A stretch of 48,983 nucleotides of DNA from Marinifilum sp. (GTDB lineage: Bacteria > UBA9089 > CG2-30-40-21), in NCBI GenBank assembly GCA_020717845.1, contig DYDG01000005.1:1-48983 (forward strand). Direction: 5' to 3'. The stretch's first letter is position 1. Every line of letters starts with the position of its first letter. Under the pieces are notes generated by a model. The model ran no database searches, was not told the origin of the DNA, and saw only the letters and a program-made list of their open reading frames with translations. A program made the translations under genes and the position numbers. This document shows, in pieces, positions 2,438 to 25,425 of the stretch.

Positions 2438-4261
2438 ATGGCTACACAAAAAAGTTTTCCATCACCTTTTGAGATAAAAACACCGCCTGGAGCAGAGGGT
2501 TGGGAAGAGATGTATCCTTACTATCTCCTGTTTAGTGATGACCGCCGGGAAGTGGAGGAAAAATTCTGGTTTTGTGATACCATGCACTGGACTTTCCCTT
2601 TATATCCTTTTGATGCTATTACAGCTGAAAACGCTTTGGCTGCCTTAGGCCAATATAATTCTCGGGTATATATGGTTCCACCAGCCCTGGGCATTGACCT
2701 GAGGGTCTTAAATGGCTATGTATATATTTCTCCTCTCCCTGTAGCCAATTCTGAGGAGGTACAAGAAAGGATAAAAGACTTTAGCGAAAGGGCGGGTTTT
2801 TACTATCAAAATTGGGATGAACTTTATGCTAAATGGAAAGAGAAGGTTACCGCAGAGATTGAGAATCTTAAAAAAATGGAAATCCCGCATCTGCCAGAGA
2901 AAGAAGATCTGGAGACGGTTAAAAATGGAGTCGGTATCTCCACAGGATTCCGTCTTTTAGAGGCATACAATCGGCTTTTAGAAAGTATGGCCAGAATTTG
3001 GCAATACCATTTTGAGTTTTTAAACTTAGGTTATGTAGCCCACCTTGATTTTACCACTTTTATGAAGAATGCCTTTCCTGATATCCAGGACCAGACGATT
3101 GCCCAGATGGTAGCCGGCATAGATATCATCCTCTTTCAGCCAGACAAAGAACTAAAAAAACTCTCAAAACTGGCTATTGAGCTTAATCTCCAGAAGATAT
3201 TCCTTAGCCGGCAGAAGACAGGAGAGATAATCGAAGAACTAAATGGATCCGAAAATGGCAAAAGATGGCTTGATGCTCTGGAGGCTATTAAAGACCCCTG
3301 GTTTTATTTCAATTCTGGCACTGGTTTCTACCATACCCCGCGTAGTTGGATAGATGACCTTTCTGTGCCATTTTCTGCTATTGGCGGGTATATCAAGAAA
3401 TTAGAACAGGCAGAGGAGATAGAAAGACCTCAGGAAGAGATAAAAAAAAAGGCGAAAAGATTAGAGAATGGATATTACTCTCTCTTGAAGCAAGATGTGG
3501 ACAAAGAAGCCTTTACAGCGAAACTTGCCTTAGCCAAAAAGGTGTATCCCTATGTAGAGGAACATAATTTCTATGTTGAGCACTGGCACCACACTATCTT
3601 CTGGAACAAGATGCGTGAGATTGGAAAGATTTTTGTTGAAAACCAATTTTTTGGCGATGAGGAGGATGTCTTTTATTTAAATAGATATGAAATCTCTCAA
3701 ACACTATATGAATTGTATTCTTGCTGGGCAATCGGTTCTATCCCAAGAGGACCAAAATATTGGTCAGAGAGGATAGAAAAGAGAAAGAAGATAATCAAAG
3801 CCCTGCAAAACTATCAACCAGTCCCAGCATTAGGCACTCCGCCTGATGTGATTACCGAGCCGTTTACCATTATGCTCTGGGGGATTGTCTCTGAAAAGAT
3901 ACAAGGCTGGCTTGAGGATCAAACCGCTGGTCAAGAAACAGGTAGGCTATTGAAAGGACATGCCGCCTCCCCTGGCATTGTAGAAGGGAAGGCAAGGCTC
4001 ATACTGTCTGTGGAAGAGTTGGATGAATTAAAGGATGGTGAAATAATGGTTTGCCCTATAACAACCCCTTCATGGACACCAATATTTTCTAAGATTGCGG
4101 CTATAGTCTCAAATGCAGGCGGAATGATGTCACATGCAGCTATAGTCTGCCGGGAGTATGGGATACCATCTGTTGTTGGCACTGGTTTTGCCACCCATCT
4201 TATTAAAACAGGTCAACAGATAAGGGTTGACGGAAATAAAGGGGTGGTAGAAATACTGTAG
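2438..4261 (+). CDS. PEP-utilising swivel-domain protein, phenylphosphate synthase alpha (PpsA)-like
   Basis: 607 aa. The C-terminal part (about 515-607) is the phosphohistidine swivel domain of PEP synthase/PPDK-type enzymes: GHAASPGIVEGKARLI, then GGMMSHAAIVCREYGIP with the expected phospho-acceptor His at residue 566, then VDGNKGVVEIL. The long N-terminal part (PPGAEGWEEMYPYY, WQYHFEFLNLGY) matches my recollection of the large subunit of phenylphosphate synthase rather than canonical PEP synthase. There is no ATP-grasp or PEP-binding barrel domain. An ATP-binding partner of the right type (beta-like, 8513-9478) lies 4.2 kb downstream, beyond an inserted defence-like block. Known enzymes of this design phosphorylate phenol using ATP and a phosphohistidine. 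The substrate here is unproven. Confidence 0.8.
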   Translation: MATQKSFPSPFEIKTPPGAEGWEEMYPYYLLFSDDRREVEEKFWFCDTMHWTFPLYPFDAITAENALAALGQYNSRVYMVPPALGIDLRVLNGYVYISPLPVANSEEVQERIKDFSERAGFYYQNWDELYAKWKEKVTAEIENLKKMEIPHLPEKEDLETVKNGVGISTGFRLLEAYNRLLESMARIWQYHFEFLNLGYVAHLDFTTFMKNAFPDIQDQTIAQMVAGIDIILFQPDKELKKLSKLAIELNLQKIFLSRQKTGEIIEELNGSENGKRWLDALEAIKDPWFYFNSGTGFYHTPRSWIDDLSVPFSAIGGYIKKLEQAEEIERPQEEIKKKAKRLENGYYSLLKQDVDKEAFTAKLALAKKVYPYVEEHNFYVEHWHHTIFWNKMREIGKIFVENQFFGDEEDVFYLNRYEISQTLYELYSCWAIGSIPRGPKYWSERIEKRKKIIKALQNYQPVPALGTPPDVITEPFTIMLWGIVSEKIQGWLEDQTAGQETGRLLKGHAASPGIVEGKARLILSVEELDELKDGEIMVCPITTPSWTPIFSKIAAIVSNAGGMMSHAAIVCREYGIPSVVGTGFATHLIKTGQQIRVDGNKGVVEIL

Positions 4262-4282
4262 GTGCATAATCTGCGACTGCTG

Positions 4283-4441
4283 ATGCTTGTCCAAGTGGAT
4301 GAAGAAATCATCAAAGATATAATTGCTGAAAACCTGAAGAAGGTCATTACTCTTGACCGTCTTTTCGGAAATAACGATCAGTTAAAAACCAATACCACCC
4401 TGCAAATGAAAGACGCAGGGATTGATTTTAAGGTGGTGTGA
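4283..4441 (+). CDS. Small ORF preceding the AAA ATPase gene
   Basis: 52 aa from ATG 4283, or 59 aa from a GTG at 4262 that directly follows the stop of the upstream gene in the same frame. The peptide is charged and protein-like (VDEEIIKDIIAENLKKV, LQMKDAGIDFKVV) and probably mostly helical. Its TGA ends one base before the ATG of the ATPase gene, and the ribosome-binding site of the ATPase (AAGGTGG) lies in its last codons, suggesting translational coupling. I do not recognise a family. It may be a small partner of the ATPase-protease pair, or a remnant at an insertion border. Confidence 0.5.
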   Translation: MLVQVDEEIIKDIIAENLKKVITLDRLFGNNDQLKTNTTLQMKDAGIDFKVV

Positions 4442-4442
4442 T

Positions 4443-5414
4443 ATGGCAAGAGCGGATATTTTAATCAGTTTGGTGCAATCAGCCAGTCGTAATGACATGG
4501 CCTCCTTTCGCAAATCCGTAGAAAGCTTGATTGCAGAAGAAAGAGCAAAAAAACACAGCATCCTCGCAGATCGATTAGTGTCATCACTTAATAATGGAAA
4601 TAAAAATGGTATTTCTGTTCGACCTAATGACGAGGCCAATGATTTAATGTTTGAGGTTGTTCCACAAAAAAGCTTTGAAGATTTAATATTAGATGAACGA
4701 ATGCTGAAAATATGCAAAGAATTGATAGAAGAACAGCATAGGGCAGACCTGCTTAGGTCTTATGGACTTGAACCACGCAACAGGATTCTACTAACAGGCC
4801 CGCCTGGCAATGGAAAGACAAGTCTTGCCGAAGCAGTAGCCACAGACTTAATGTATCCATTTTTTGTAATTCGGTATGAGAATTTGATAGGGAGGTATCT
4901 TGGCGAAACAGCTTTGAGACTCAAAAAAGTTTTTGATTATGTGAAAACTCGCAATTGTGTTCTGTTTTTTGATGAATTTGATACAATAGGAAAAGAACGC
5001 GGCGATACAAAAGAAACAGGTGAAATTAAACGGGTTGTAAGTTCTTTGCTTCTTCAAATGGACAGGCTGCCAAGTTATGTTGTCGTAATTACTGCAAGCA
5101 ATCATCCGGAGCTTCTTGACCGTGCTGTCTGGCGTAGGTTTCAATTAAGGTTGGACTTGGGATTACCTGACAAAAAACAGATCAAATGTTTTATTGAGCT
5201 TTTTACTAAAAAAACAGGTTTTAAGTTTAATTATACTATCGAAAGTCTATCTGAAAAGTTATCAGGTTACAATTTTTCAGAAGTTGAGGAGTTTTGTACA
5301 GATGTTTTAAGGCAGGCGGTTTTAACTCATAAACAGGATAATGCCCGAAACATTGTTTCTGAAAAACTGAAGCAGTGGCAAACTAAGTTTACGGTTAGCA
5401 AATTAAAGGAGTGA
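4443..5414 (+). CDS. ietA: AAA+ ATPase, IetA-like (partner of subtilase)
   Basis: 323 aa, started at ATG 4443 with AAGGTGG 6 nt upstream; a longer TTG form from 4422 is less likely. After an N-terminal helical region there is one AAA domain. It has Walker A GPPGNGKT (residues 119-126), Walker B VLFFDEFD (D177, E178), a sensor-1 region VVVITASNHPELLDRAVWRR with paired arginines, and a C-terminal lid. The next gene, 7 bp downstream, is a subtilisin-like protease. An AAA ATPase followed directly by an S8 protease is the architecture of IetAS, described as a plasmid-incompatibility factor and as an anti-phage system. Function here is inferred from that pairing. The gene looks more AT-rich than the flanking dikinase genes. 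Confidence 0.75.
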   Translation: MARADILISLVQSASRNDMASFRKSVESLIAEERAKKHSILADRLVSSLNNGNKNGISVRPNDEANDLMFEVVPQKSFEDLILDERMLKICKELIEEQHRADLLRSYGLEPRNRILLTGPPGNGKTSLAEAVATDLMYPFFVIRYENLIGRYLGETALRLKKVFDYVKTRNCVLFFDEFDTIGKERGDTKETGEIKRVVSSLLLQMDRLPSYVVVITASNHPELLDRAVWRRFQLRLDLGLPDKKQIKCFIELFTKKTGFKFNYTIESLSEKLSGYNFSEVEEFCTDVLRQAVLTHKQDNARNIVSEKLKQWQTKFTVSKLKE

Positions 5415-5421
5415 GAGTAAT

Positions 5422-8157
5422 ATGCAGGAAAGACCACTTTTAATATTCCCAAAGCCTACTATTGCAGGACGCGATAAAGGGAAACCAGTTTATGGTTCCC
5501 CACATTATCATTATCCATCTTTTCAGAGGCAAAAAGACAGGTTAACTCCGCAATTTGAAGACATGCGTGAATCTTTTATTACTGATACAACAGCAGGGCT
5601 TGAGCCTGAATCTGTATTGGTAATTGAAACAATAGGGAAAATTGATGATTTTCAGAGGGCGGTGCGTGCTATTCCCGGCCTTGAGTGGTTGTCGGAAATC
5701 GATGAGGAAGAAATGCCATCTGATGAGGATTGTTATCAGATTTGTAAAATAGGTAAACGGCTTTTTCGTGAAAGGATTAAAGGAATTAGCAGTAAACAAT
5801 CTTCAGAAATATGGAAACTCCTCAATGAAAATGGATTTGTTGATAAAGATGGTTATGTAACAGACAAAGAACTTAAAGACTTTGAACAAGTTATACCGGA
5901 TGAATTGTCTGAATATGGCAAAGAAATAATATCCGCAATTAAAGATAAAATATCAGAATCCAAAAAGAATGCAATAAGTGGCCGTCTTTATCTGAGCATG
6001 AGCAATAAACAGGCAATGGATGAGTTGATGAGTCTGTGGAAGCAATGGGATTCTAAAGATAAGAAGCTTCCCAGGGGATATGGAAAATGGGCTGAAATTT
6101 TTAGACACATTAGGTCTATCAGACCATGGGATATTCGGGACAGATTAAGAGAAACCGGTGTTGTCGAATACTGGAAAGAAGAGCTTGATATAAAAAAAGG
6201 AACAGCTTCAAAGATACCATTTGAAATTGAGTTGTGGTACAGAAAGGATGCTGATAAAAGAAGGGAAATATATGCAAGAATTGAAGAGTATATTTCTGAA
6301 GAAAAAGGAAATATTGTTGCGTCTTGCACAATCGATGAAATTCGATTCCACGCAATAAAAGCTGAATTGCCACCGGAAAGCATCGAAAAAGTAATTAATG
6401 ATAAGCATACAAAAGTTTTTACCAGTAACGATGTAATGTTTTTTAGACCGGTTGGGCAATGCAGTGTTGAAATGTATCCTGAAGGTGAAGAAGGGGATTT
6501 TCAAGCTGGAAATGTATCGGGCGATCCGGTGGTTGCCATATTTGATGGAGATCCATTTGTTCATCATTCCTTGCTTGAAAATCGTTTAATTTTAGATGAT
6601 CCTGATGATTTTGGCAGTACTTATCAGGCAAAGGAGAGAAAGCATGGAACCGCAATGGCTTCTCTGATTTGTCATGGTGAATTAGATGCTAAAGAAGAGC
6701 CTTTATTGCGACCTGTATATTTCAGACCCATAATGAAACCTGATCGGGACGGTTTTGTCAACAGGGAAATAATTCCAAAAGAATATTTTTGGCAAGACCT
6801 TATTGAGCGTTCTGTGCGCAGGATATTTGAAGGAGATGGAACAGAAAAAGCAGCTGCACCAACAGTGAAAATTATTAATCTCTCAATTGGTGATCCTTCA
6901 AGGATGTTTTTTAATCAATTAAGCTCATGCGCCAAATTACTTGATTGGCTATCAGAAAAATATCAAGTGCTTTTTTGCGTAAGTGCGGGGAATATTACCA
7001 CTGATCTTGATCTTGAAAAGAGTGAAACAGATATTAAATTGCTTAATGATGATGAGTTATTAAAACATACCATGCAGAAAATTCAGGACGATATTCGTAA
7101 CCGCAAGCTATTTGCTCCGGCTGATTCCATTAATGCGATAACTATAGGAGCCATTCATACGGATAGATCAGTTATTACAAATTTAGGAAACAGGATAGAT
7201 ATTTTACCCATCCAAATATTGCCCTCTCCTGTTTCGGCTCATGGGCACGGTTTTAGAAATTCCATAAAACCAGAACTATATTTTCCTGGCGGGCGGCAAT
7301 TGTATGATTATGATTATGCTAATAAAAGATATAAAGTTTCAGATTCTGGTGAAGCCCCTGGACAATCTGTAGCAACTACACATGGAACTTCTGGACAAAG
7401 GAACCGTTGTGTCTATGCCAGAGGGACAAGTAATGCAGCAGCTTTAGCAACTCGTGGGGCAGCTCAAATATTTGAGGTATTGAATGGATTAAATATATCC
7501 GATGAGGAAAACATAGCAGCTCTATTAAAGACTTTGCTTATACATAGTGCTTCATGGGGAAATAGTGATAGCATTTTGGAGGAGTATTTAAAAAACCAGG
7601 ATAATTTGCACAATATTAGAAAGGTTGTATCTCGCTATATTGGTTATGGTTTTCCTAACATTAATCGTGTGCTTGAATGTACTGCGCAAAGGGCAACAGC
7701 TATTGGTTATGGAAAGATAAAAAAGGACAAAAAACACGATTTTAGATTTCCTTTGCCCCCAGGTATTAGTGGAACAAATGAAATGAGGCGACTAACCATA
7801 ACTCTCGCCTGGTTCAGTCCTATTAATGCGGATAGCCGAAAGTTCAGAAAAGCAAACCTTTCCATTGACCCGCCAAAAGATATAATAGGTGTAGATAGAC
7901 AAAATGCAGATTGGCAACAGGTTAAAAACGGAACTGTTCAACATGAAGTCTTAGAAGGGAGTAAGGTTAGCTTTTTTGAGGACGGAGATGCTTTAATAAT
8001 TTCAGTTGTATGTAGGGAAGATGCCGGTAATCTTGACGAAACCGTTAATTATGGACTTGCTGTAACTTTGGAAGTAGCAGAAGGTGTAGAAATTTCTGTT
8101 TACGAAGAGATTGCGGAAAGGATTCGTATTGAAGTGCCTGTTGAGGAGTCTGCCTAA
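5422..8157 (+). CDS. ietS: Subtilisin-like serine protease (S8), IetS-like
   Basis: 911 aa with no signal peptide, so cytoplasmic. A charged N-terminal region of about 360 aa precedes the S8 domain. The catalytic residues are all visible: Asp375 in VAIFDGDP, His408 in KHGTAMASLI, oxyanion Asn524 in CVSAGN and Ser670 in ARGTSNAAALA. The long insert between Asn and Ser and the C-terminal beta-rich region (about 750-911) fit the large proteases that pair with AAA ATPases. The gene lies 7 bp after the ATPase gene and its TAA overlaps the ATG of the next frame. The likely role is a protease gated by the ATPase in defence or plasmid exclusion. It could instead be a housekeeping protease, but the gene pair argues against that. 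Confidence 0.8.
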   Translation: MQERPLLIFPKPTIAGRDKGKPVYGSPHYHYPSFQRQKDRLTPQFEDMRESFITDTTAGLEPESVLVIETIGKIDDFQRAVRAIPGLEWLSEIDEEEMPSDEDCYQICKIGKRLFRERIKGISSKQSSEIWKLLNENGFVDKDGYVTDKELKDFEQVIPDELSEYGKEIISAIKDKISESKKNAISGRLYLSMSNKQAMDELMSLWKQWDSKDKKLPRGYGKWAEIFRHIRSIRPWDIRDRLRETGVVEYWKEELDIKKGTASKIPFEIELWYRKDADKRREIYARIEEYISEEKGNIVASCTIDEIRFHAIKAELPPESIEKVINDKHTKVFTSNDVMFFRPVGQCSVEMYPEGEEGDFQAGNVSGDPVVAIFDGDPFVHHSLLENRLILDDPDDFGSTYQAKERKHGTAMASLICHGELDAKEEPLLRPVYFRPIMKPDRDGFVNREIIPKEYFWQDLIERSVRRIFEGDGTEKAAAPTVKIINLSIGDPSRMFFNQLSSCAKLLDWLSEKYQVLFCVSAGNITTDLDLEKSETDIKLLNDDELLKHTMQKIQDDIRNRKLFAPADSINAITIGAIHTDRSVITNLGNRIDILPIQILPSPVSAHGHGFRNSIKPELYFPGGRQLYDYDYANKRYKVSDSGEAPGQSVATTHGTSGQRNRCVYARGTSNAAALATRGAAQIFEVLNGLNISDEENIAALLKTLLIHSASWGNSDSILEEYLKNQDNLHNIRKVVSRYIGYGFPNINRVLECTAQRATAIGYGKIKKDKKHDFRFPLPPGISGTNEMRRLTITLAWFSPINADSRKFRKANLSIDPPKDIIGVDRQNADWQQVKNGTVQHEVLEGSKVSFFEDGDALIISVVCREDAGNLDETVNYGLAVTLEVAEGVEISVYEEIAERIRIEVPVEESA

Positions 8158-8402
8158 TGAAACTCCATTTTGACCCCAATCAACAATTCCAAATTGACGC
8201 CGTCAATTCCATTGTCGGTATATTTGAAGGTCAGCCGCTTAACCGGAGCGACTTCAGTTTTTCTATAGATAATGAAGGTTATCTTTTTGAGGAAGGCAGT
8301 ATCGGCAACCGTCTTATTCTCAGCGAAGAACAGCTGTTGAAAAATGTGCGGGCTGTTCAGGAGAAGAATGAAATTTCCATCTCAGACAAATTGGCCGGTT
8401 AA
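8157..8402 (+). pseudogene. N-terminal remnant of a type III restriction enzyme (Res)
   Basis: 81 codons starting in a TAATGA overlap with the protease gene. The sequence begins MKLHFDPNQQFQIDAV and continues with GIFEGQPLNRSDFSF and NRLILSEEQLLKNVRAVQE, which I recognise as the extreme N-terminus of type III restriction subunits, proteins of roughly 900-1000 aa. The frame stops just where the helicase motif I region should follow, and nothing helicase-like is seen downstream. It is therefore a truncated gene, although the short product could still be made because of the coupled start. No Mod gene is adjacent. A fragment resembling a Mod C-terminus occurs at 38790. Confidence 0.6.
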
Positions 8403-8512
8403 CGAATTTGAGGATGTGAAGTACAAACAGGTGGTCACTGTTGGAGAATTGGATTAATACCAAATTGCAATCAAAGGTATATTGTAAGCGTTCAAGTCCA
8501 GGTAAAGGTAAA

Positions 8513-9478
8513 ATGGAAGAAAGTCTTTATATAAAATGGAATTATGACCAAACAATGGTATCTGCGGTGGGAAATAAAGCCGCAAAATTAGGGCAACTCA
8601 AGGAAATGGGTATAAAAGTCCCGGCAGGATTTGCTATAACCCAAAAAGCATTCATGGATTTTCTAATCTATAATGGGATTTATAGCAAAATTAAGGCACA
8701 ACTTTCAAACCTTTCTGGTGAACTGGAAACTGTCAAATTTAGGAGTCAGGGGTTGAGGGAACTCTTTGATGAGGCTGAGATGCCCAATAAAATGAGCAAC
8801 GAGATGACTGATGCCTGCCGCCAACTCGGTTTGCTATTTAAGAAAAAAATTCTGTTTGCGGTCAGGTCTTCTTCTATCATAGAAGACTTGGAGCAGGCAA
8901 GTTTTGCCGGGCTTTATGATACCTTCCTTAATGTCCACCCGGGGACGGAACTATTTGAAAGTATTAAGAAATGTTGGCAAAGCGCCTTTAGCCTTCGGTC
9001 ACTGACCTATTTAAAAAAACTGGGCATGCCAACCAATGACCCTCAGGATATGGCTATGGGGATTATCATTCAACAACAGATTATTTTAGAATTTGCTGGG
9101 GTAATGTTTACTGTGAACCCGGTAAATGGAGACGCCTCTAAAATCTTGATTGAATATTCAACGAGCAGCGAAAAACCTGTGGTCTCTGGCGAATCTACAC
9201 CCAACTCTATATTGATTGATAAGGTAACTGCCCAGATTGATAAAAGGGGTCAAGGGGTGTTTGATAAAGAACATATCGATTGTTTGACATCAATCGGAAC
9301 AAGGATTGAAGAACATTTTGGCTGCTATCAGGATATTGAATGGGCAATAGATAGGGATTCTGGTGAGGTTGTTATCCTTCAGGCAAGACCTGAAAGCGTA
9401 TGGAATATCAGGCATCAAAAACCATTCCATCAGGATGGTCAGACTGTTTTTAACTTTATTCCAGAGGTAAGGATTTAA
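8513..9478 (+). CDS. PPDK/PEP-synthase N-terminal ATP-binding protein, phenylphosphate synthase beta (PpsB)-like
   Basis: 321 aa from ATG 8513; a 345 aa form from TTG 8441 is less likely because its first 24 residues look non-coding. It is a stand-alone PEP/pyruvate-binding ATP-grasp domain: GNKAAKLGQLKEMGIKVPAG near the start, FAVRSSSIIEDLEQASFAG with the nucleotide-binding arginine, GVMFTVNPVNGDASKI, and QDIEWAIDRDSGEVVILQAR near the end. It lacks the swivel domain, which is supplied by the 2438-4261 protein. The size matches the ~40 kDa beta subunit of phenylphosphate synthase. It would bind ATP and phosphorylate the swivel histidine. The inserted 4.2 kb block now separates it from its presumed partner. 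Confidence 0.8.
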   Translation: MEESLYIKWNYDQTMVSAVGNKAAKLGQLKEMGIKVPAGFAITQKAFMDFLIYNGIYSKIKAQLSNLSGELETVKFRSQGLRELFDEAEMPNKMSNEMTDACRQLGLLFKKKILFAVRSSSIIEDLEQASFAGLYDTFLNVHPGTELFESIKKCWQSAFSLRSLTYLKKLGMPTNDPQDMAMGIIIQQQIILEFAGVMFTVNPVNGDASKILIEYSTSSEKPVVSGESTPNSILIDKVTAQIDKRGQGVFDKEHIDCLTSIGTRIEEHFGCYQDIEWAIDRDSGEVVILQARPESVWNIRHQKPFHQDGQTVFNFIPEVRI

Positions 9479-9489
9479 AGGTGAAAAAG

Positions 9490-11424
9490 ATGTTTGAAAC
9501 TATTTTTGATAAGGCTAAGGTATATTACCAGTCTGAGCTTGACCTTAACCATATGAAGATTGCTCTAAAAATGGCTGAAGAATTGACTCTTAAAGAGGGT
9601 GGGAATAAGAAAATAATCATACCAGCTATTATTATGCATGACATGGGCTGGCAAATCTTTTCAGAAGAGGAGAAATTCAGAATAAGAGGGGTTGGCGGGA
9701 GATTAGAGAATGTCCAATTAAGACATAAACATGAGGTGGAAGGTGCTGTATTAGCTGAGAAGATCCTTTCTGAGATAAATTATCCAGAACAAGAAAAGGC
9801 ATTGATTGTCCAGATTATAATCGGACATGATACAAGAACATGGCCCCTTTCCCATGAGGATATGATTGTTAAGGATGCAGATAAACTGTCAAGATATTAC
9901 CCTGAACATATTGACCAATGGTCTATCAAGTTTAAGAAAAATCCCAAAGACTGGCTCGACTACCTTAACTCTCAAATAGAAAAATGGCTGTTTACTGATA
10001 CTGCTAAATTTATGGCCAGAAGATATATCTTGCAAAAAAAATTGGGCATCTTGAACTCTGCGTTTGAAAAAGGCTTAAGTAGCACATTCTATAATTTCCT
10101 TATTAGATTAGAATGTGAAATAGCTAAATTGGTTGAAGAACATCTGAGAAAGATAATCATATTGGCTGCCAAGGAAAAGGCTTATGACGTTAAGAAAATG
10201 ATAGAGTTATACTTAGCTGATCTATCATCTGTTGATGTTTATGAGCTGCAGAAGGATGAAGAATTCTGCTCTATTGCCACCCAAATGGTTGGTGAAAAGG
10301 GCTACATTGGTATAATAGATATAGAATCTCATAGGATTGTCTTTCATCAGGATAAAAGGCTTCTGAATTTATCCGAAGAAGAGCTTGAGGTATATAGACC
10401 CTCTGAATATTTACATGGATTCTGGGAGTGGCATGAGCGAGCCATTCAGGGTGAAGAATTCTATTCCTACTATCAAGGGATGAATATAAATAAAGAGGTA
10501 GTGGATAAGTTTCAGTATGTAGTCCCTTTGAATATGAAAAATATTAGATGGGCAATAGTAGTTACAGCAGATTATGACGATTTCTTTAAACCCATTGACA
10601 TCTTAAATCAGAAGATTGTCCAGTCTACTAATGAGGTTCTATCTCAGATTGGCATATTTAGTCATCTGCTTGAGGAACGAACCAAAAAACTTGAGGCAGA
10701 GGTTATCGAACGAAAGCAGGCAGAGGAAGAGCTCAAAGTAGCACAAAATAAATTGATTCAATCAGAAAGATTAGCTGCTACTGCCCAGATCGCCTCTGAG
10801 GTTGCTCATGAAATCAGGAATCCATTGGCAGTAATTAAGGCTGGACTTTTTTATCTGAATGAGACAATCCCTAAAAAAGATGATTCTGAGGATGCTATAT
10901 TCAAGATGTATGCAGCTGTGGATAGAGCCAGCTCTTATCTCAGTGAACTGTTGAACTTTTCAAAAGCGTTAGTGATTAACCTGCTTCATGTTAATATCAA
11001 TGAGATCATTGAGCAGGTTATAAAAGAGATACCTTATAAAACATTATTCTCAGAGGTAGCGATAATCAAGGGTTTTGCCTCTGATTTGCCATTACTAAAT
11101 GCTGACCCAGAAAGGTTAAAACAGGTCTTTGTTAATATCATAAAGAACGCTGCCGAGTCTATGGTTGAGGTCGAAAACAAGAGGCTGGAGATAAAGACTC
11201 AACAAGAAGAAAATAAGATTAAAATAACTATCGCTGATACTGGTAAGGGAATATCCGAAGAAAACCTCAAGCACATCTTTGACCCATTCTTTACTACCAA
11301 AGGTAAAGGAACAGGATTAGGGTTGGCTGTGTGCCATAGGTTTATAGATGCACATAAAGGTGAAATCAGGGTAGAAAGTAAGGTTGGCGAAGGAACAACA
11401 TTTATCATCAAGCTTCCCATCTAA
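9490..11424 (+). CDS. Hybrid HD-domain / sensor histidine kinase
   Basis: 644 aa from ATG 9490 with AAAGGTG 6 nt upstream; GTG 9481 is an alternative. Domain order: an N-terminal HD domain (about 15-150) with NHMKIALKMAEE, IIMHDMGW, GHDTRTWP and KDADKLSRYY; a Cache/PAS-like sensor region (about 265-375); a coiled coil; a HisKA domain with SEVAHEIRNPLAVIKAG (His440); and HATPase_c with NIIKNAAESM, IADTGKGIS and TTKGKGTGLGLAV. No transmembrane segment is evident, so it is probably cytosolic. The HD part may be a phosphohydrolase or a signalling module. It follows the ATP-binding subunit gene by 11 bp, so it may be co-transcribed with it. No cognate response regulator is adjacent; the lone regulator is at 46452. 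Confidence 0.8.
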   Translation: MFETIFDKAKVYYQSELDLNHMKIALKMAEELTLKEGGNKKIIIPAIIMHDMGWQIFSEEEKFRIRGVGGRLENVQLRHKHEVEGAVLAEKILSEINYPEQEKALIVQIIIGHDTRTWPLSHEDMIVKDADKLSRYYPEHIDQWSIKFKKNPKDWLDYLNSQIEKWLFTDTAKFMARRYILQKKLGILNSAFEKGLSSTFYNFLIRLECEIAKLVEEHLRKIIILAAKEKAYDVKKMIELYLADLSSVDVYELQKDEEFCSIATQMVGEKGYIGIIDIESHRIVFHQDKRLLNLSEEELEVYRPSEYLHGFWEWHERAIQGEEFYSYYQGMNINKEVVDKFQYVVPLNMKNIRWAIVVTADYDDFFKPIDILNQKIVQSTNEVLSQIGIFSHLLEERTKKLEAEVIERKQAEEELKVAQNKLIQSERLAATAQIASEVAHEIRNPLAVIKAGLFYLNETIPKKDDSEDAIFKMYAAVDRASSYLSELLNFSKALVINLLHVNINEIIEQVIKEIPYKTLFSEVAIIKGFASDLPLLNADPERLKQVFVNIIKNAAESMVEVENKRLEIKTQQEENKIKITIADTGKGISEENLKHIFDPFFTTKGKGTGLGLAVCHRFIDAHKGEIRVESKVGEGTTFIIKLPI

Positions 11425-12275: not shown

Positions 12276-12560
12276 ATGGATTTGACTTTTGAGTGGAATG
12301 AAGAAAAAGCCAAAGAGAATCTTAAAAAACACAAGGTCAGCTTTAAAGAAGCAAAGACAATTTTCAATGATCCGTTTTTAATGACATTTCCTGATTCAGA
12401 ACATTCTGAGGATGAACAACGATATATCAACATTGGCAGTTCTTCAAAAGGACAGGTTTTGGTTGTTATTCATACAGAGCGAGAACCAAATATTAGAATT
12501 ATTTGTTGCCGTAAAGCAACTACAAAAGAAATGGTGGTGTATGAAGAAAGAGCTTTCTAA
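12276..12560 (+). CDS. brnT: BrnT family toxin (DUF497)
   Basis: 94 aa. The N-terminus FEWNEEKAKENLKKHKVSF and the run KEAKTIFNDPFLM are the BrnT/DUF497 signature; the C-terminal strand RIICCRKATTKEMVVYEER completes the fold. BrnT is a RelE-like ribonuclease toxin of type II modules, normally neutralised by a downstream antitoxin that also represses the operon. The start has AGAGGAAAC upstream. It overlaps the next gene by 20 bp. The pair sits between two paralogous secreted-protein genes to which it is unrelated, which suggests horizontal insertion. Confidence 0.85.
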   Translation: MDLTFEWNEEKAKENLKKHKVSFKEAKTIFNDPFLMTFPDSEHSEDEQRYINIGSSSKGQVLVVIHTEREPNIRIICCRKATTKEMVVYEERAF

Positions 12561-12850: not shown

Positions 12851-12912
12851 AACTACTCAAACAATCGCTGCACCTGACCCGCCTAAGGCAGCAGGTGAGC
12901 TTTGTCGTTATG
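12851..12912 (+). repeat. attC-like palindromic site
   Basis: TCAAACAATCGCTGCACCTG is mirrored by GCAGGTGAGC followed by TTTGTCGTTATG, around a short centre CCGCCTAAGGC. The arms are complementary apart from a few unpaired bases, as in integron attC sites, and the right end resembles the conserved CGTTA-type core. GTTATGT is not a perfect GTTRRRY, so this is tentative. Confidence 0.4.
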
Positions 12913-12940
12913 TTGTCTCTACATATCCAGAGGTGATGGA

Positions 12941-15900
12941 ATGCTGTTTATTAGAATGATGCTTCTTCTTGTTAGCTTGTTCCTGATAACCCCTGCCTTT
13001 GCTAATCAGCCAAAGGAGATAAGGCAGACCAATATTACATCCAATCAATTTGCCATCTCATGGACCACCGATACTCCTGGAACAGCCGCTATTCTTTATG
13101 GCCCTGGCACAAACAGCATCAATCTTTTGGCTGTAGACGGCAGTTTATCCACTACCCACCATATTCAGGTTGAAAACGGACTATCTCAAAATACCACATA
13201 TTATTATGACATCATCTCCGGCGGGACTACCTACAATAATGCAGGATCCTTAACTACTGGTCCATACATTGCATACTCAGGAAGCGATTTTGTGCATGGT
13301 CGAGTATACAAGGCAGATGGTATTACCGCAGCTAATAGGGCAATAGTATATGTTCGAATCAATAAACTTGATGGCAAGGGTTCTGTCGGCAGCTCTTCAG
13401 AATGGTCAAAGGTTGTTGGTCAAGACGGCTCATGGGACATTGATTTAATTAATGTCAGGACAAATGATCTCTCCAGCCTTTTTGACTACTCCCCATCTGG
13501 CGACAGCCTTTCCATCTTTGTTCAGGGCGGCATAGATGGCACAGGCAGGCTGATTACAAATATAGCCAATGCTTCACCCTGCCAGAGCATCATAATATCA
13601 ACCGATACCACTGCCCCAGCCAAAATAACAAACCTTTCAGGAACGAGTAGTGGACAAACATCTGTTATCCTTACATGGTCATCCCCTGGTGATGATGGGA
13701 ACATTGGCGCAGCCAAAGGGTATGAGATTCGATATGCCCAAACACCTATTATTACAGACAATGACTGGCTGCAGGCATTTATTGCTTCAGGTGCACCTGC
13801 ACCAAAATCAGTCGGCACAAATCAACAATGTATAGTATCAAACCTTATGTCAGGGACAGGTTATTCCTTTGCCATAAAAGCATATGATGAAGTGCCAAAC
13901 TGGTCTGAAATATCAAATACTGCTGCTGCCACTACCCTTGTGCCAAGCACAGCAACCCTCAAGTGGCTGAATAAGCCGAACTTTATAGGAGATGGGCTTC
14001 GTACCGAGATGGGTACAGGCGGCATGAACATTGTCTATCAGGTAGTATATACTGATGCAGATAGCAAGCCGCCAACTCTTGGTTATCCAAAGGTTAGAAT
14101 TTATCGGGAAGGGGTGGTTCTTGAGAGCATCAATACCATGCTGTATGCCTCAGGCAGTCCTGTGAGTGGGACAGTGTATAGCTTTTCCAAACAGTTTGCT
14201 CAACCAGGGACATATACCTATGAGTTTGATGGTGGAAATGCTATGGGTGATGCTCATCTCTGCCTGAAGAATGGGCCGATTATCCTTGAATCCTTGCCTG
14301 ACCATCAGGAAACCAATGTTACAGATACAAGCTTTGCGGTTTCATGGTCAACCATGGATGCTGCCTCAGCTCAGATAATCTATGGTACCGGAGCCAGCAG
14401 TCTGAACGCTACTGCAACAGAGATATCTGCAGGTGGAGAGAAAAATGTCCATCAGGTTACAATTGATGGGCTTATAAAGGAAACAACCTATTACTATGAT
14501 ACAGGTGACCATAACATAAGGACAATAAAAACTAGCACCCCTGTCATCCCAGATGGCAGTGATTTGATATATGGCAACCAGGTATATAAACAGGGTGGGA
14601 CGCTGTCTGTATCAGATGCTGTAGTTTATGCCATACTACGAGATGGTGATGGCAAACAGACTCCTGGAGTTTCAGCCATTGGCTCTACAAGGGTGGATAC
14701 AAGTGGCAAATGGTCAATGGATCTGGCTAATTTCAGGAATGTTTCGCTATCACAGCAATTTATACACTCACCCAACAAAGCTTACCCAGATAACCTGGAT
14801 TATTTGCATATCTGGATAAATGGTGCGAGTGATGGATTGGCAAGCCAGATATTGATGACTGATGAGGATACACCGGTATGTGCTCTGGAATTGTGCAATG
14901 ACCATATTCCGCCTGCAACGGTTACTGGCATTGCTCTCCAAACCTCAACCCCTAACTCCATTACCCTGAAATGGACTGCATCAGGTGATGATGGCAATAT
15001 TGGCAAGGCATCATATTATCACATCAGATATGCAACATCATCAAGCAGGGTTATTGATTATGGAATCGCTACACCTTTAGTATCTGGCAGCACGCAGACT
15101 ATTATTACCGGGCTTAATCCATCAACAACATACCATTTCATTGTCCAGGCATCAGATGATGTCTGGAATACATCTGCCCCATCGCAGATAATAATGGGGA
15201 CAACTGCACCACCACTTCAACGCCCGCCAGTATTATCCTGGGCAAGCAAGCCACTAACACCAGGAACAGCCAATGTTTACACGAAATTTACCTACAACGT
15301 CAGGTATACAGATGTTGATGGTGATGCACCGTTATCTGGTGAGCCGAAGGTAGTTATCTGTCAGGGTGGTAAGGTAATAAAGACAGTTCCCATGACCTAT
15401 GCAGCAGGGATATATACCACAGGTGCTACCTATACCTGCTCAACCCTATTGCCAGGGGCTGGGATATATTCCTACAGGTTTGAGGTAACAGGGGCTACCA
15501 GCAGCCTGACAGGCAATGGGCCATTGGTGTTTGATATCCCCAGTCATCTTCGGATAACCAATGTTACTCATAAAGGATTTACTGTAAGCTGGAGAACAGC
15601 AGTCAAAGGGACAGCCAGTGTATCGTATGGGACAACAACAGCATTCGGCAGCACAGCTACAGACAACGTCCTTCGTGATGTCCATTATGTGACTGTAGCA
15701 AACCTTGAGCCAGACACGGTGTATTACTTTGATGCAGCATCTGCTAATGTGAGTGATGATAACCAGGGCAAGCATTATATGGTCAAAACAGGTGCGGCAA
15801 TTATCAATACCTCTCCTGGTAGTGATTTTGTTACTGGTTGTGTCTATGAACGTAAGGGCATTCCAGCTGAAGGGGCCGTGGTGTATGTAACCGTCATTGA

Positions 15901-16441
15901 TGCAGATGGGCAGGGTTCCCCTGAGCAATCTGCTGCCCTTTCTGTCCTGACAGATGCAAATGGGGCATGGTTTGTGGATACGCTTAACTCCAGAACACGT
16001 GATTATTTATCGAAATTTGAGTATTCGAGTAATGATACCATCTACATCGAGACGGATGGTGGGGAAAGGGGAAAGGCAAACAAATCGCTTGATATGATTG
16101 TTGGACGTACTCCAGATATTATTCTATATACATGGATTGGTCCTGCGAATAAACTGTTGGTTAAGAATATGACCTATTCATACCCAAACCCGGCAAAGCA
16201 GGTTAATGCGATTACCTTTCGCTATTACTTGAATGCAGATGCAGATGTTACCTTAAATCTTTACAACCTTGCCGGAGAGCTTATTCAGACTATTAAGAAA
16301 AAGGGTATTGGCTATAATGAGGACAATAAGATCGTGTGGGATATACCAGATATTGCCTCAGATATATACATCTGGCAGTTAGAGGCAATATCTGGTAATT
16401 TGCGTGAGAGAATAGTGAAAAAGCTTGTGATTGTGAAGTAA
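12941..16441 (+). CDS. Large secreted multi-domain FN3 protein with FlgD-like C-terminal sorting domain
   Basis: 1166 aa from ATG 12941 (AGAGGTG upstream); a longer frame from 12902 adds 13 unlikely residues. The signal peptide ends near TPAFA. Domain order: module 1 (about 22-215, FN3-like plus regulatory-like sandwich), canonical FN3 (221-325, TTAPAKITNLSG ... SPGDDGNIGAAKGYEIRYA), an Ig-like segment (335-445), module 2 (449-645), FN3 (653-750), an Ig-like segment (760-860) and module 3 (866-1065). A C-terminal FlgD-like/type-A-sorting-like domain (about 1076-1166) follows, with YSYPNPAKQ and VTLNLYNLAGELIQTI. Such C-terminal domains direct proteins through type IX-like secretion, and a PorV-like barrel gene follows directly. 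The likely role is surface adhesion or structure. Confidence 0.8.
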   Translation: MLFIRMMLLLVSLFLITPAFANQPKEIRQTNITSNQFAISWTTDTPGTAAILYGPGTNSINLLAVDGSLSTTHHIQVENGLSQNTTYYYDIISGGTTYNNAGSLTTGPYIAYSGSDFVHGRVYKADGITAANRAIVYVRINKLDGKGSVGSSSEWSKVVGQDGSWDIDLINVRTNDLSSLFDYSPSGDSLSIFVQGGIDGTGRLITNIANASPCQSIIISTDTTAPAKITNLSGTSSGQTSVILTWSSPGDDGNIGAAKGYEIRYAQTPIITDNDWLQAFIASGAPAPKSVGTNQQCIVSNLMSGTGYSFAIKAYDEVPNWSEISNTAAATTLVPSTATLKWLNKPNFIGDGLRTEMGTGGMNIVYQVVYTDADSKPPTLGYPKVRIYREGVVLESINTMLYASGSPVSGTVYSFSKQFAQPGTYTYEFDGGNAMGDAHLCLKNGPIILESLPDHQETNVTDTSFAVSWSTMDAASAQIIYGTGASSLNATATEISAGGEKNVHQVTIDGLIKETTYYYDTGDHNIRTIKTSTPVIPDGSDLIYGNQVYKQGGTLSVSDAVVYAILRDGDGKQTPGVSAIGSTRVDTSGKWSMDLANFRNVSLSQQFIHSPNKAYPDNLDYLHIWINGASDGLASQILMTDEDTPVCALELCNDHIPPATVTGIALQTSTPNSITLKWTASGDDGNIGKASYYHIRYATSSSRVIDYGIATPLVSGSTQTIITGLNPSTTYHFIVQASDDVWNTSAPSQIIMGTTAPPLQRPPVLSWASKPLTPGTANVYTKFTYNVRYTDVDGDAPLSGEPKVVICQGGKVIKTVPMTYAAGIYTTGATYTCSTLLPGAGIYSYRFEVTGATSSLTGNGPLVFDIPSHLRITNVTHKGFTVSWRTAVKGTASVSYGTTTAFGSTATDNVLRDVHYVTVANLEPDTVYYFDAASANVSDDNQGKHYMVKTGAAIINTSPGSDFVTGCVYERKGIPAEGAVVYVTVIDADGQGSPEQSAALSVLTDANGAWFVDTLNSRTRDYLSKFEYSSNDTIYIETDGGERGKANKSLDMIVGRTPDIILYTWIGPANKLLVKNMTYSYPNPAKQVNAITFRYYLNADADVTLNLYNLAGELIQTIKKKGIGYNEDNKIVWDIPDIASDIYIWQLEAISGNLRERIVKKLVIVK

Positions 16442-18625: not shown

Positions 18626-18647
18626 TAATTAAAAGGAGGAAATGTGT

Positions 18648-19865
18648 ATGTCAAAATTGGTTGCACCACATGGTGGTGGTAAGCTTAAGCCATTGTTACT
18701 TCATGGTGATGAGCTCAAGGCAGAACGAGAAAAGGCTAAGGGACTGACTCAGATAAAGATGGGTTCAAGGGAAACATCTGACTTAATCATGCTGGGTATT
18801 GGTGCTTTTACGCCATTGGAAGGGTTCATGGGGTATGAAGACTGGAAGGGTGTTTGCGAGAATATGACCCTGTCTACTGGTGTTTTCTGGCCAATCCCGA
18901 TTACCCTGTCAACTACTAAGGGACAGGCAGACAGCTTATCAATTGGCGAAGAGATTGCCTTGATTGATGAAGAAACAGCTGAATTAATGGGGACCATGAA
19001 GATAACCGAAAAATATTCCATTGATAAGGAATATGAATGCAAACAGGTGTTTAGAACAAATGATATCGAACATCCAGGTGTGCAAAAGGTTATGTCTCAG
19101 GAAGAGGTAAACCTTGCCGGAACAGTAAAGGTATTGAATGAGCTTCATTATCCAGAGGAGTTTGGTGCTAAGTATATGCGTCCAGAACAGACCCGAGCAG
19201 TTTTCCAGGAAAAAGGCTGGAGCTCAGTGGCTGCATTGCAATTGCGAAACCCGATGCATCGTGCCCATGAGCACCTGGCAAAGATAGCTATTGAGATTTG
19301 CGATGGGCTACTTATCCACCAATTGGTTGGCAAACTCAAAGAAGGGGATATCCCTGCTGATGTTAGGGTAAGGGCAATTGACCGTTTGGTTGAGGGATAT
19401 TTTGTTAAAGATACCTGTATTCAGGGTGTTTACCCCATGGAGATGAGATATGCAGGTCCTCGTGAGGCATTGCTTCATGCTGTTTTTAGACAGAACTATG
19501 GCTGCAGCTATCTGTTGATCGGAAGGGATCATGCAGGTGTAGGCAACTATTATGGCCCATACGATGCTCAGCGAATCTTTGACGAGATACCGGCTGATGC
19601 CCTCTTGATTAAGCCGCTTAAGATTGATATGACCTTCTATTGCCTTAAGTGCGATGGCATGGCCTCTACCAAGACATGCCCTCATGATGTGAACGATAGG
19701 GTAAACCTGAGCGGAACAATGCTGAGAAAGATGTTGTCTGAGGATCAGCCGCTCCCAGATCACTTCAGCAGACCTGAGGTAGCAGAGGTATTGAAGGAGT
19801 ATTATGCAGCATTAGACCAAAAGGTTGAGATTAAGCTGCATAAGCATGCACTTGGACAGAAGTAG
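18648..19865 (+). CDS. sat: Sulfate adenylyltransferase (ATP sulfurylase), dissimilatory type
   Basis: 405 aa. The ATG at 18648 is chosen because AAAGGAGG ends 8 nt before it; ATG 18642 is too close. The enzyme makes APS and pyrophosphate from sulfate and ATP, the first step of dissimilatory sulfate reduction, or runs in reverse during sulfur oxidation. The ATP-sulfurylase signatures are present: [15 protein letters not shown] with the HxxH-like nucleotide site, and [21 protein letters not shown] cysteine-containing segment, [15 protein letters not shown], follows. Length is normal for the homo-oligomeric family of sulfate reducers, and there is no APS-kinase fusion. It is followed by aprB and aprA, the classical order. 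Confidence 0.97.
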
Positions 19866-19883
19866 TAATAAATAGATTGTAGA

Positions 19884-19914
19884 CTGTTAGGGAGGGAAAG
19901 TGATAACCTAACAG
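19884..19914 (+). repeat. Hairpin between sat and aprB
   Basis: CTGTTAGG (19884-19891) pairs with CCTAACAG (19907-19914). No T-run follows, so read-through into aprB is expected. A related palindrome follows the DUF2723 gene at about 46364-46411. Confidence 0.5.
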
Positions 19915-20002
19915 CCTTCAGCCTAAACACCTTACAAAGGAGGTGGGTTAAAAACAAGAGGATAGAAAAAGTTGATTTGTTATTAAATAAAGGAGGTTTC
20001 GT

Positions 20003-20434
20003 ATGCCAAGTTTTGTAATTGCAGAAAAATGTGATGGCTGCAAGGGACAGGATAAGACTGCATGTCAGTATATTTGTCCAAATGATTTGATGAGATTGAA
20101 CGAGGAAAAGACCAAGGGATTTAACCAGGAGCCTGAGCAGTGCTGGGAGTGTTATTCTTGTGCCAAGATATGTCCTCAGCAGGCAGTAGAGATTAGGGCT
20201 TATGCAGACATTGTCCCGCTGGGTGGAAAGGTTCTTCCAATGAGAGGAACAGATTCCATTATGTGGACAATACAGTTCAGAGATGGTAGTATAAAGAGGT
20301 TTAAGTTTCCTATACGGACAACAGCAGAAGGCTCTATCAAGCCTTATGAAGGGACACCCCAGCCAACAGAGGCTGACCTTAAGACAAATAATCTCTTTAC
20401 CGAAATAGGAAAAACACTTCCTACAATAGCATAG
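20003..20434 (+). CDS. aprB: Adenylylsulfate (APS) reductase, beta subunit
   Basis: 143 aa with AAAGGAGG upstream of the ATG. It is the ferredoxin-like electron-transfer subunit of APS reductase. Two 4Fe-4S sites are visible: EKCDGCKGQDKTACQYICP near the start, and QCWECYSCAKICPQQAVEIR at about residues 48-65. A beta-rich C-terminal part (VPLGGKVLPMRGTDSIMW) follows and wraps around the alpha subunit in known structures. It passes electrons to the FAD of AprA, which lies 71 bp downstream. Length and cysteine spacing are typical. Confidence 0.97.
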   Translation: MPSFVIAEKCDGCKGQDKTACQYICPNDLMRLNEEKTKGFNQEPEQCWECYSCAKICPQQAVEIRAYADIVPLGGKVLPMRGTDSIMWTIQFRDGSIKRFKFPIRTTAEGSIKPYEGTPQPTEADLKTNNLFTEIGKTLPTIA

Positions 20435-20505
20435 GATGAAAGAGGTTTTGGAAGAGGTTGGAAGAGGTTAAAAAAAAGCTAAAATTACTTAAGAGGAGGA
20501 AATAG

Positions 20506-22428
20506 ATGTCTGTTGTAACTGCAGAGAATTCACATTTTTGTAAAGATCCGCAAATAGTCCAGATAGAGACAGATCTTTTGATTATTGGTGGCGGTATGGC
20601 TGCCTGTGGTGCCGCATATGAGGCAAAGAAATGGGCTCCAGAGGGTATGAAGATTACATTGGTAGATAAAGCAGCTATGGAAAGAAGCGGTGCTGTTGCC
20701 CAGGGACTTTCAGCTATTAATACCTATCTTGGTCAAAATACACCTGAAGATTATGTTCGCATGGTTTCAAACGATTTAATGGGTGTGGTCCGTGATGACC
20801 TTATCTATGATGTTGGTAGACATGTGGACGATAGTGTTCATAAATTTGAGGAATGGGGACTGCCTATATGGAAACAACATGGAGATGAAGATAAAACACT
20901 CGAGCAGGGTGGACAACCTGTTAGATCTGGTAAATGGCAGGTCATGATCAATGGTGAGTCATATAAAACCATTGTGGCTGAATCGGCTAAGACATCCATT
21001 GGTATGGATAATATCTATGAAAGGGTGTTTATTGTTAAGCTGTTGCTGGATGAAAAACAAGAAAACAGAATAGCTGGTGCAGTCGGATTTAGCGTCCGAG
21101 AAAACAAAATTTATATCTTCAAGGCAAAGGCTATCATGATGGCCTGCGGCGGTGCGGTCAATATCTTCAGACCAAGACAGTCAACCGGTGAGGGTATGGG
21201 CAGGGCATGGTATCCTGTTTGGAATGCAGGCTCTACCTACACTATGGCTGCACAGGTTGGTGCTGAGTTGACCATGATGGAAAACCGCTTTGTGCCAGCA
21301 AGATTTAAGGATGGGGCAGGTCCGGTTGGTGCATGGTTCTTGCTGTTTAAGGCAAAGGCAGTCAATTCACTTGGTGAGGATTATTGCGTAAAGAATGCAG
21401 CCATGCTTCAGGATTATCTGCCTTATGGTAATTCTAAGGTTACTCCAACATGTTTAAGAAATCACCAGATGCTTAAAGAAATACGTGAAGGTAGAGGTCC
21501 TATTTACATGGATACACCTACTGCCATGAAAAACCTCTTTGAGTCATATGGTAATGATAAAAAGAAATGCAAGGAGCTTGAGTCAGAGGCATGGGAAGAC
21601 TTCCTTGATATGTGCGTTGGTCAGGCAGGCTTCTGGGCTGGAATGAATATTGCCCCTGAGTTAAAGGGATCAGAGCTTATGCCAACTGAGCCATATCTGC
21701 TTGGTTCTCACTCTGGTTGCTGCGGTCTATGGGTAAGCGGACCAGATGATGTTTCTCCAGCTGAATGGCACTGGGGTTATAACCGTATGACAACCGTTAA
21801 CGGCTTGTTTACTGCTGGTGATGGTGTGGGTGCATCAGGTCATAAGTTCTCATCAGGCTCACATGCTGAGGGAAGGCTTGCCGCCAAGTCAGCGGTCAAG
21901 TTTATTCTTGATAACAACACCAATCCAACAATTACTCAGGATCCTAAGGTATTGGCTGATGAGATATATCTGCCATTCCACAACTATGAAACACATAAGG
22001 GATATTCGGTTGACCCGGAGATTAATCCAAACTATATTAAGCCAAAGATGCTGCTCTTCAGGCTTAATAAGATCATGGATGAATACGGTGGCGGCTGTGG
22101 AACATCTTATGTTACTGGTGGGAAAATGTTGGAGAAGGCATTGGAGCTTCTTGATATTCTTAAGGAAGACGCTACGAAGCTGGCAGCCAGAGATCTTCAT
22201 GAATTAATGAGATGCTGGGAGAATTACCATCGTATCTGGACCGCAGAGGCACATTTGCGGCATATCGTGTTCCGTCAGGAATCAAGATACCCTGGATTCT
22301 ATTACAGATCTGACTTTAACCTGATTGATGATGCTAACTGGAAGTGCTTTGTCAATTCTAAGGTGGATCCAAAGACACATCAGTGGACAATGATGAAAAA
22401 GGCACATAAGGATTTGGTGTCTAAGTAA
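20506..22428 (+). CDS. aprA: Adenylylsulfate (APS) reductase, alpha subunit
   Basis: 640 aa, with AAGAGGAGGAAATAG before the ATG. It is the FAD subunit that interconverts APS with sulfite and AMP. The FAD-binding start is DLLIIGGGMAACGAAYEAKK. Other conserved stretches are RSGAVAQGLSAINTYLG, FMVNG-type MINGESYKTIVAE, MMENRFVPARFKDGAGPVGA, and GLFTAGDGVGASGHKFSSGS near residue 445. It belongs to the fumarate-reductase-like flavoprotein family. Length and motifs match AprA of sulfate reducers. An intrinsic terminator follows the stop, so the sat-aprBA unit probably ends here and qmoA is not co-transcribed by default. Sequence alone does not tell me whether the enzyme works reductively or oxidatively. 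Confidence 0.97.
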   Translation: MSVVTAENSHFCKDPQIVQIETDLLIIGGGMAACGAAYEAKKWAPEGMKITLVDKAAMERSGAVAQGLSAINTYLGQNTPEDYVRMVSNDLMGVVRDDLIYDVGRHVDDSVHKFEEWGLPIWKQHGDEDKTLEQGGQPVRSGKWQVMINGESYKTIVAESAKTSIGMDNIYERVFIVKLLLDEKQENRIAGAVGFSVRENKIYIFKAKAIMMACGGAVNIFRPRQSTGEGMGRAWYPVWNAGSTYTMAAQVGAELTMMENRFVPARFKDGAGPVGAWFLLFKAKAVNSLGEDYCVKNAAMLQDYLPYGNSKVTPTCLRNHQMLKEIREGRGPIYMDTPTAMKNLFESYGNDKKKCKELESEAWEDFLDMCVGQAGFWAGMNIAPELKGSELMPTEPYLLGSHSGCCGLWVSGPDDVSPAEWHWGYNRMTTVNGLFTAGDGVGASGHKFSSGSHAEGRLAAKSAVKFILDNNTNPTITQDPKVLADEIYLPFHNYETHKGYSVDPEINPNYIKPKMLLFRLNKIMDEYGGGCGTSYVTGGKMLEKALELLDILKEDATKLAARDLHELMRCWENYHRIWTAEAHLRHIVFRQESRYPGFYYRSDFNLIDDANWKCFVNSKVDPKTHQWTMMKKAHKDLVSK

Positions 22429-22449
22429 GTGATTGTCCGGTAATCGGTT

Positions 22450-22489
22450 GCAGGGGTAAGGGATTATCTCTTGCCCCTGCTTGTTTTTT
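22450..22489 (+). terminator. Rho-independent terminator after aprA
   Basis: GCAGGGGTAAG (22450-22460) pairs with CTTGCCCCTGC (22470-22480, one G-T pair) around a 9 nt loop, followed by TTGTTTTTT. This is the clearest intrinsic terminator in the window, 22 bp after the aprA stop. Confidence 0.85.
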
Positions 22490-22518
22490 GGATGGTGTCT
22501 GAAATTAGCTAAAAGTTT

Positions 22519-22646
22519 GCCACAAAGGCACTAAGATGCACAAAGAAAATTTTAAAGCACTCATTAAAGATAGAATGAAAAAAATGAAACGGATAATTTT
22601 ATAAGATATATCTTAGAGAACCTTTGTGTCTTAGTGCCTTTGTGGC
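22519..22646. mobile_element. MITE-like element, GCCACAAAGGCACTAAGA family, copy 1
   Basis: GCCACAAAGGCACTAAGATG (22519-22538) is the reverse complement of the right end CTTTGTGTCTTAGTGCCTTT plus GTGGC (22622-22646), allowing a 2-base gap. The interior (CATTAAAGATAGAATG, TTTTATAAGATATATCTTAG) is shared with copy 2 at 27672-27789. No coding capacity. It lies between aprA and hicB. Confidence 0.7.
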
Positions 22647-22814
22647 AGAAATTATCCGGCAACTAACAAGCTAAGCTATTCTCAGACACCACCGTTTTTT
22701 GTAATGAATTTAGTTATTTTTGGACACTACTGAAAATCGAATGTAATCAGTCGGTCATTGGTATAGAACGGTGGACAACCACAATCTCCTCATGAAGGAG
22801 GAAAATATAATCAT

Positions 22815-23229: not shown

Positions 23230-23250
23230 ATTTGAAAAAGAGGTGAAACA

Positions 23251-25409: not shown

Positions 25410-25425
25410 TATATGAGGAGATTAG

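Follow-up and report, generated by a model that had tools for sequence, protein, structure and literature searches.

A two-subunit dikinase operon in a Marinifilum genome, its subunit junction probably taken by a decayed type III restriction–modification locus carrying IetA and IetS

Why should two genes that appear to encode the subunits of a single enzyme be separated by about 4.2 kb of unrelated sequence? The question is raised by a 48,983-nucleotide stretch (the window) of contig DYDG01000005.1 from Marinifilum sp. (GCA_020717845.1), a 2.5-Mb draft genome of 181 contigs that is 94% complete. The window encodes a swivel-domain protein (A) and an ATP-grasp protein (B), with a fusion of an HD domain and a histidine kinase (HDHK) beginning 2 bp after B. 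The first-pass annotation had described A and B as subunits of a phenylphosphate-synthase-like dikinase, normally encoded by neighbouring genes, and had proposed that a defence module had integrated between them in a catabolic or biosynthetic operon. We favour, with a probability of about 0.7, a reading in which the A–B junction of a dikinase operon was taken by a type III restriction–modification (R–M) locus carrying the pair IetA–IetS, of which mod and res have decayed while the other genes have stayed intact. The features of the locus are as follows.

2101 to 2421, no strand: element resembling a miniature inverted-repeat transposable element (MITE), with 32-nt terminal inverted repeats
2438 to 4261, + strand: dikinase subunit A of the HpeH/CreH/PpsA type, with substrate-binding and swivel domains and predicted catalytic His566
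4262 to 4440, + strand: most likely a type III mod remnant, VHNLRLLM joined to the last ~52 residues of Mod
4443 to 5414, + strand: IetA, AAA ATPase with Walker motifs (PADLOC PDLC04232)
5422 to 8157, + strand: IetS, S8-family peptidase with Asp, His and Ser motifs (PADLOC PDLC04233)
8157 to 8402, + strand: type III res remnant, the first ~81 residues
8404 to 8457, + strand: probable last ~17 residues of res (EFEDVKYKQVVTVGELD and a stop), at their best position on the nearest Res
8513 to 9478, + strand: dikinase subunit B of the HpeI/CreI/PpsB type, with an ATP-grasp domain, starting at ATG 8513
9481 to 11424, + strand: HDHK, whose HD part resembles an HD protein encoded in a cre-like operon

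Subunit A is an intact open reading frame (ORF) of 607 residues. A domain profile search identifies a C-terminal swivel domain of the phosphoenolpyruvate (PEP)-utiliser type (1.1e-25), in which His566 lies within the sequence S558-N-A-G-G-M-M-S-H566 (SNAGGMMSH), fitting the motif T/SxxGGxxxH, and is invariant in 9 relatives from the phylum and 36 wider relatives. The residue two before His566 is Met, at a position that is Thr in PEP synthase; HpeH carries its phospho-carrying His in the same motif, likewise with Met two before it (PMC12167813). Over its full length, A matches the NCBIfam family NF006153 of stand-alone 'PEP-utilising' proteins (865 bits). The AlphaFold model of A (pLDDT, the predicted local distance difference test score, of 91) aligns over its whole length with structures of rifampin phosphotransferase (RPH), whose chains are the only full-length PDB matches found by Foldseek (E-value of 1.4e-18), and the fold of HpeH has likewise been reported as an RPH match (PMC12167813). 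RPH differs in being one fused chain with just 18–20% identity to A, and an antibiotic substrate has no support here. An assignment of A as a PEP synthase or pyruvate phosphate dikinase was dropped, since PEP synthases align with A solely at the swivel domain and its flank, and the full-length matches are RPH and the stand-alone PEP-utilising proteins.

Full-length homologues of A are encoded in operons of two kinds. A shares 47.9% identity over ~600 residues with a PpsA-type protein, the product of the first gene of an Azoarcus plasmid operon in which genes for a PpsB-type ATP-grasp protein, a CBS protein, ppcB/D/A/G, UbiD and UbiX follow, and 48.4% over ~600 residues with a CreH-type protein of Rhodococcus, where the order cytochrome P450, I, H, short-chain dehydrogenase/reductase (SDR), ferredoxin-reductase, HD and aldehyde dehydrogenase (ALDH) is that of the cre genes. 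The similarity comparison called for by the first-pass annotation thus places A nearer to PpsA- and CreH-type proteins than to PEP synthases. Subunit B contains an ATP-grasp domain (PF01326, 6.2e-72) and comprises 321 residues from ATG 8513, as its relatives begin at the homologous ATG; an earlier start at TTG 8441 is a mechanical artefact.

Full-length homology of A, an RPH-like fold, the His motif and a separate ATP-grasp subunit together place A and B, on sequence and model comparison, as the two subunits of one enzyme of the two-component small-molecule dikinases, represented by HpeHI, CreHI and PpsAB (PMC12167813, PMC9618137). As in those systems, two separate genes encode an A protein of ~70 kDa, with an RPH-like substrate-binding part and a swivel domain, and an ATP-grasp B protein; here, however, cargo separates the genes. 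The claim that A and B are subunits of one Pps-like dikinase therefore stands, and the phenylphosphate synthase label proves too narrow (PMC12167813). No PpsC (CBS protein) or phenylphosphate carboxylase gene is linked to the locus, as had been said of the phenol carboxylases, which sets it apart from PpsABC. Linked pathway genes for a P450, a dehydrogenase or a carboxylase are also absent, which sets it apart from CreHI and HpeHI; the nearest neighbours encode HDHK, BrnT and fibronectin type III (fn3)-type proteins. In place of the carboxylase, P450 or phosphatase genes of the known systems stands HDHK, with a response regulator in relatives, so that the operon context appears regulatory rather than visibly catabolic or biosynthetic. 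The ratio of nonsynonymous to synonymous substitution rates (dN/dS) against the relative G006 is 0.10 for A and 0.24 for B; with 0.12 for HDHK, these values indicate purifying selection on all three.

The intervening block spans 4262–8512 (4,251 bp), on the same strand as A and B, and its AAA ATPase, S8 protease and Res remnant, already recognized by the first-pass annotation, are each matched by PADLOC. Its composition indicates a decayed type III R–M locus in which an intact IetA–IetS pair is left between what remains of mod and of res. The octapeptide VHNLRLLM directly after the A stop corresponds to Mod residues 200–207 of a plasmid relative and runs on in frame into a match to the final ~52 Mod residues (57% identity to the Mod C-terminus, 3e-12); what had been called a small ORF (4262–4440) is thus most likely a mod remnant. 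The IetA ORF extends from 4422 to 5414, with a likely start at ATG 4443, matches its PADLOC profile at 485 bits and has Walker A (GPPGNGKT) and Walker B (VLFFDE) motifs. IetS matches at 1,019 bits, with the motifs IFDGD (Asp), HGTA (His) and GTSNA (Ser). Downstream, 8157–8402 matches the N-terminus of PADLOC REase_III (1.5e-11) and is 46–48% identical to annotated Res N-termini. The short segment 8404–8457 finds its best of 261 positions on the closest Res, although two more distant Res proteins fail to confirm this placement; with moderate support, it is probably the last ~17 residues of Res, which would imply an internal deletion in res. Neither mod nor res is complete at the locus, where the C-terminus of Mod, the N-terminus of Res and probably the C-terminus of Res are left.

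The simplest reading of this arrangement is a type III system with ietA–ietS as internal cargo that later lost most of mod and res. The order mod-X-res, on one strand and with tight spacing, is that of type III loci with an accessory gene, three of which (L090, L098 and L099) are found on plasmids; there X is a PDDEXK, DUF262 or unnamed gene, whereas here X is ietA–ietS and mod and res are stubs. The adjacent AAA ATPase and S8 peptidase genes, with intact motifs and strong PADLOC matches, resemble the IetAS anti-phage system, from which the pair differs in its lodging between mod and res remnants inside another operon. The third-codon-position GC content of ietA and ietS (0.27–0.31) contrasts with that of nearby genes (0.37–0.45), and IetS homologues occur on many plasmids. 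A phage origin of IetS was dropped, no match having been found among 50,697 phage records, as was movement of the block by a known transposable element, no transposase being encoded inside it; the two block borders have no shared repeats or target-site duplications of at least 8 bases. Of the 386 genomes searched, three, including that of the window, contain an IetS match, too few to establish a broad mod-ietAS-res order. Such a nested pair would make a useful example of the way in which defence genes move and can outlive their carrier. The proposal of a defence module in a catabolic or biosynthetic operon accordingly holds for the defence pair, and is replaced by a decayed R–M carrier and a regulatory context in its other parts.

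Two side observations concern loci of this type. The three plasmid loci may point to a general nested cargo site between mod and res. In another genome of the same genus, G002, a second IetAS pair, 45% identical, lies at a different locus (L080, contig C135, 6906–11431), with flanks that, judged by eye, look like what is left of another type III system: the decayed end of a Mod and the beginning of a Res riddled with stops.

Within the block, ietA starts at most 3 bp from the mod stop, and ietS follows 7 bp later, its stop overlapping the ATG of res; this tight spacing indicates that the block is a single coupled unit, oriented like A. On the + strand of 4262–4443, no sigma-70-like site is listed, although such scans are weak, and it is plausible that the block is read through from the A promoter.

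The state of the A–B junction in relatives was surveyed in 35 loci outside the phylum in which A precedes B and in nine resolvable genomes among the 19 of the phylum. Outside the phylum, the gap between the two genes measures −15 to 156 bp and contains no cargo; among the other listed values, 383 stems from L030, where B is frame-split, and the phylum members G006 and G002 account for 883 and 144. Because adjacency of the subunit genes is normal elsewhere, their separation in the window is not a matter of chance. Uninterrupted pairs, for which a synteny comparison had been proposed, thus exist at the 35 loci and also within the genus of the window, where G002 has a gap of 144 bp without a gene. 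The block of the window is absent from other relatives. The interruption is no one-off: eight of the nine phylum genomes have cargo at this junction, of five unrelated kinds: ietAS in the window, a nucleotidyltransferase-like gene without a Pfam match in G006 and G017, a HicA/HicB-like pair (HicBA) in G010, a CCDC90-like coiled coil in G004 and G007, and 23S-IVP-like genes with weak Pfam scores in G008 and G014. At the B–HDHK junction of the same operons, none of six resolved cases has cargo (p of about 0.001, with no correction for relatedness). Between G006 and G017, synonymous divergence (dS) is 0.57 for the nucleotidyltransferase cargo, compared with ~2.1 for A; this cargo therefore arrived after the A lineages split. 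These comparisons indicate that the interruption is derived and that cargo turns over at the junction. In the tree of A, the window pairs with G006, from another family, with full support rather than with its genus mates, which suggests that the dikinase operon itself has also moved between lineages. The locus is an example of a conserved operon for a two-subunit enzyme in which unrelated defence or mobile cargo has repeatedly settled between the subunit genes.

HDHK is strictly linked to A. Its HD-plus-middle part occurs in 8 of the 386 genomes, all from the phylum of the window and all with A, and in none of the nine phylum genomes without A. In a single pairwise comparison, the HD domain is 31% identical over 157 residues (73.9 bits) to the HD protein that takes the place of CreD in the cre-like operon; creD is listed as encoding a phosphohydrolase (PMC7764795), and the domain here differs in being fused to a histidine kinase. 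The best PDB match of the HD domain has an E-value of just 0.004, and an AlphaFold model of residues 2–430, built from two sequences only, has a pLDDT of 48. A response regulator is encoded after HDHK in G004, G007 and G008 and before A in G010. Given the HD likeness, the strict link to A and the nearby response regulators, HDHK may sense, and perhaps hydrolyse, the product of A and B.

The best reading of the operon is therefore a phosphorylate-and-sense system whose A–B junction serves as a cargo site. A type III R–M locus carrying IetA–IetS between mod and res would have occupied that junction; decay would then have reduced mod and res to stubs and spared IetA, IetS, A and B. In the enzyme, B would bind ATP and phosphorylate His566 of A, and the swivel domain would deliver the phosphoryl group to the substrate bound in the RPH-like part of A, a small hydroxylated compound that is probably phenolic. 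The HD domain of HDHK would sense, and possibly hydrolyse, the phosphorylated product, and HDHK would signal to the response regulator that several relatives encode alongside it. Because A and B are separate proteins, cargo between their genes would be tolerated as long as transcription runs through, and this read-through would also express IetAS, which has the same orientation and would act as an ATPase-gated protease defence pair. Such an operon would extend the two-component dikinases past visible catabolic pathways to a strictly linked sensor kinase with a phosphohydrolase-like domain, in a circuit that is open to experimental test. The stronger form of this proposal, a dedicated signalling operon in which a CreD-like HD–histidine kinase reads the product of A and B and the A–B junction is a preferred landing site for defence and toxin–antitoxin genes, we put forward only tentatively.

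Several observations weigh against the reading adopted here. HD domains are common, and the likeness of the one in HDHK to the CreD-position protein comes from one comparison; B is only 31–32% identical to PpsB- and CreI-type partners and evolves faster than A. IetA and IetS fall below the NCBIfam equivalog cut-offs set for the founder proteins (224.7 of 510 bits and 89.7 of 900 bits), which marks them as a divergent subfamily. The junction statistics come from nine related genomes, their relatedness uncorrected; the A–B gap of G007 is spread over two contigs, and a gap in the cargo-free control comes from G010, where HDHK is preceded by an extra ORF on a separate contig. This ORF, together with the BrnT toxin gene within the same window and the short repeats that abound in its genome, also fits a view of the A–B junction as ordinary, one of many intergenic gaps that these genomes fill with toxin–antitoxin, nucleotidyltransferase or defence genes. 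We regard that view as a serious possibility, though not the favoured one, given the contrast between eight of nine junctions with cargo at A–B and none of six at B–HDHK, and the recurrence at A–B of the same cargo across families, less diverged than the host gene.

IetAS might instead have been recruited, so that operon and cargo make up a single module for defence or stress, with the cargo under the control of the phosphorylated small molecule or of the kinase. The repeated presence of defence and toxin–antitoxin genes beside a conserved signalling operon, and the strict link of HDHK to A, would agree with this; but G002 lacks cargo, the CCDC90-like and 23S-IVP cargo has no known defence role, IetS homologues lie on many plasmids and IetAS at another locus in G002, and mod and res have decayed like passive passengers, making recruitment unlikely. 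It is quite improbable that A and B form a phenylphosphate synthase in the strict sense, supplying a UbiD-type carboxylase encoded elsewhere. In favour are the closeness of A to a PpsA-type protein from a phenylphosphate operon and the presence of one UbiD gene in the window genome, on another contig, but UbiD is present in 16 of the 19 phylum genomes, in single copy and regardless of A, which fits a housekeeping decarboxylase; no UbiD, UbiX or ppc gene was seen at the locus, and A is equally close to the CreH-type protein. An erroneous join of the block between A and B, conceivable in a draft of so many contigs, is very improbable: the spacer 8400–8515 is single-copy, the genome contains just one full-length copy each of A, B and IetS, block and operon share one strand with coupled starts, and relatives independently carry cargo at the same junction.

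In the neighbourhood of the operon, the MITE-like element lies directly upstream of A, its terminal repeats (2101–2132 and 2390–2421) being 91% complementary and enclosing GC-rich repeats; counting its own position, 37 places in the genome show matches to the ends and the GC-rich interior, many of them to the termini only. Upstream, 163–1665 (− strand) encodes a secreted-looking protein of 500 residues with low-complexity stretches rich in His, Pro and Lys. An Rfam scan yielded the tRNA as its sole match. The BrnT toxin gene (12276–12560; PF04365, 4.6e-29), two genes downstream of HDHK, represents another insertion of the toxin–antitoxin type. It is followed at 12902–16441 by a gene for a secreted-looking protein of 1,179 residues, with fibronectin type III and purple-acid-phosphatase N-terminal repeats. 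Farther downstream, 18642–31267 encodes an ATP sulfurylase and then FAD and iron–sulfur proteins (FAD_binding_2, FlpD-like), resembling a sulfate-reduction cluster (Sat, AprA, Qmo-like).

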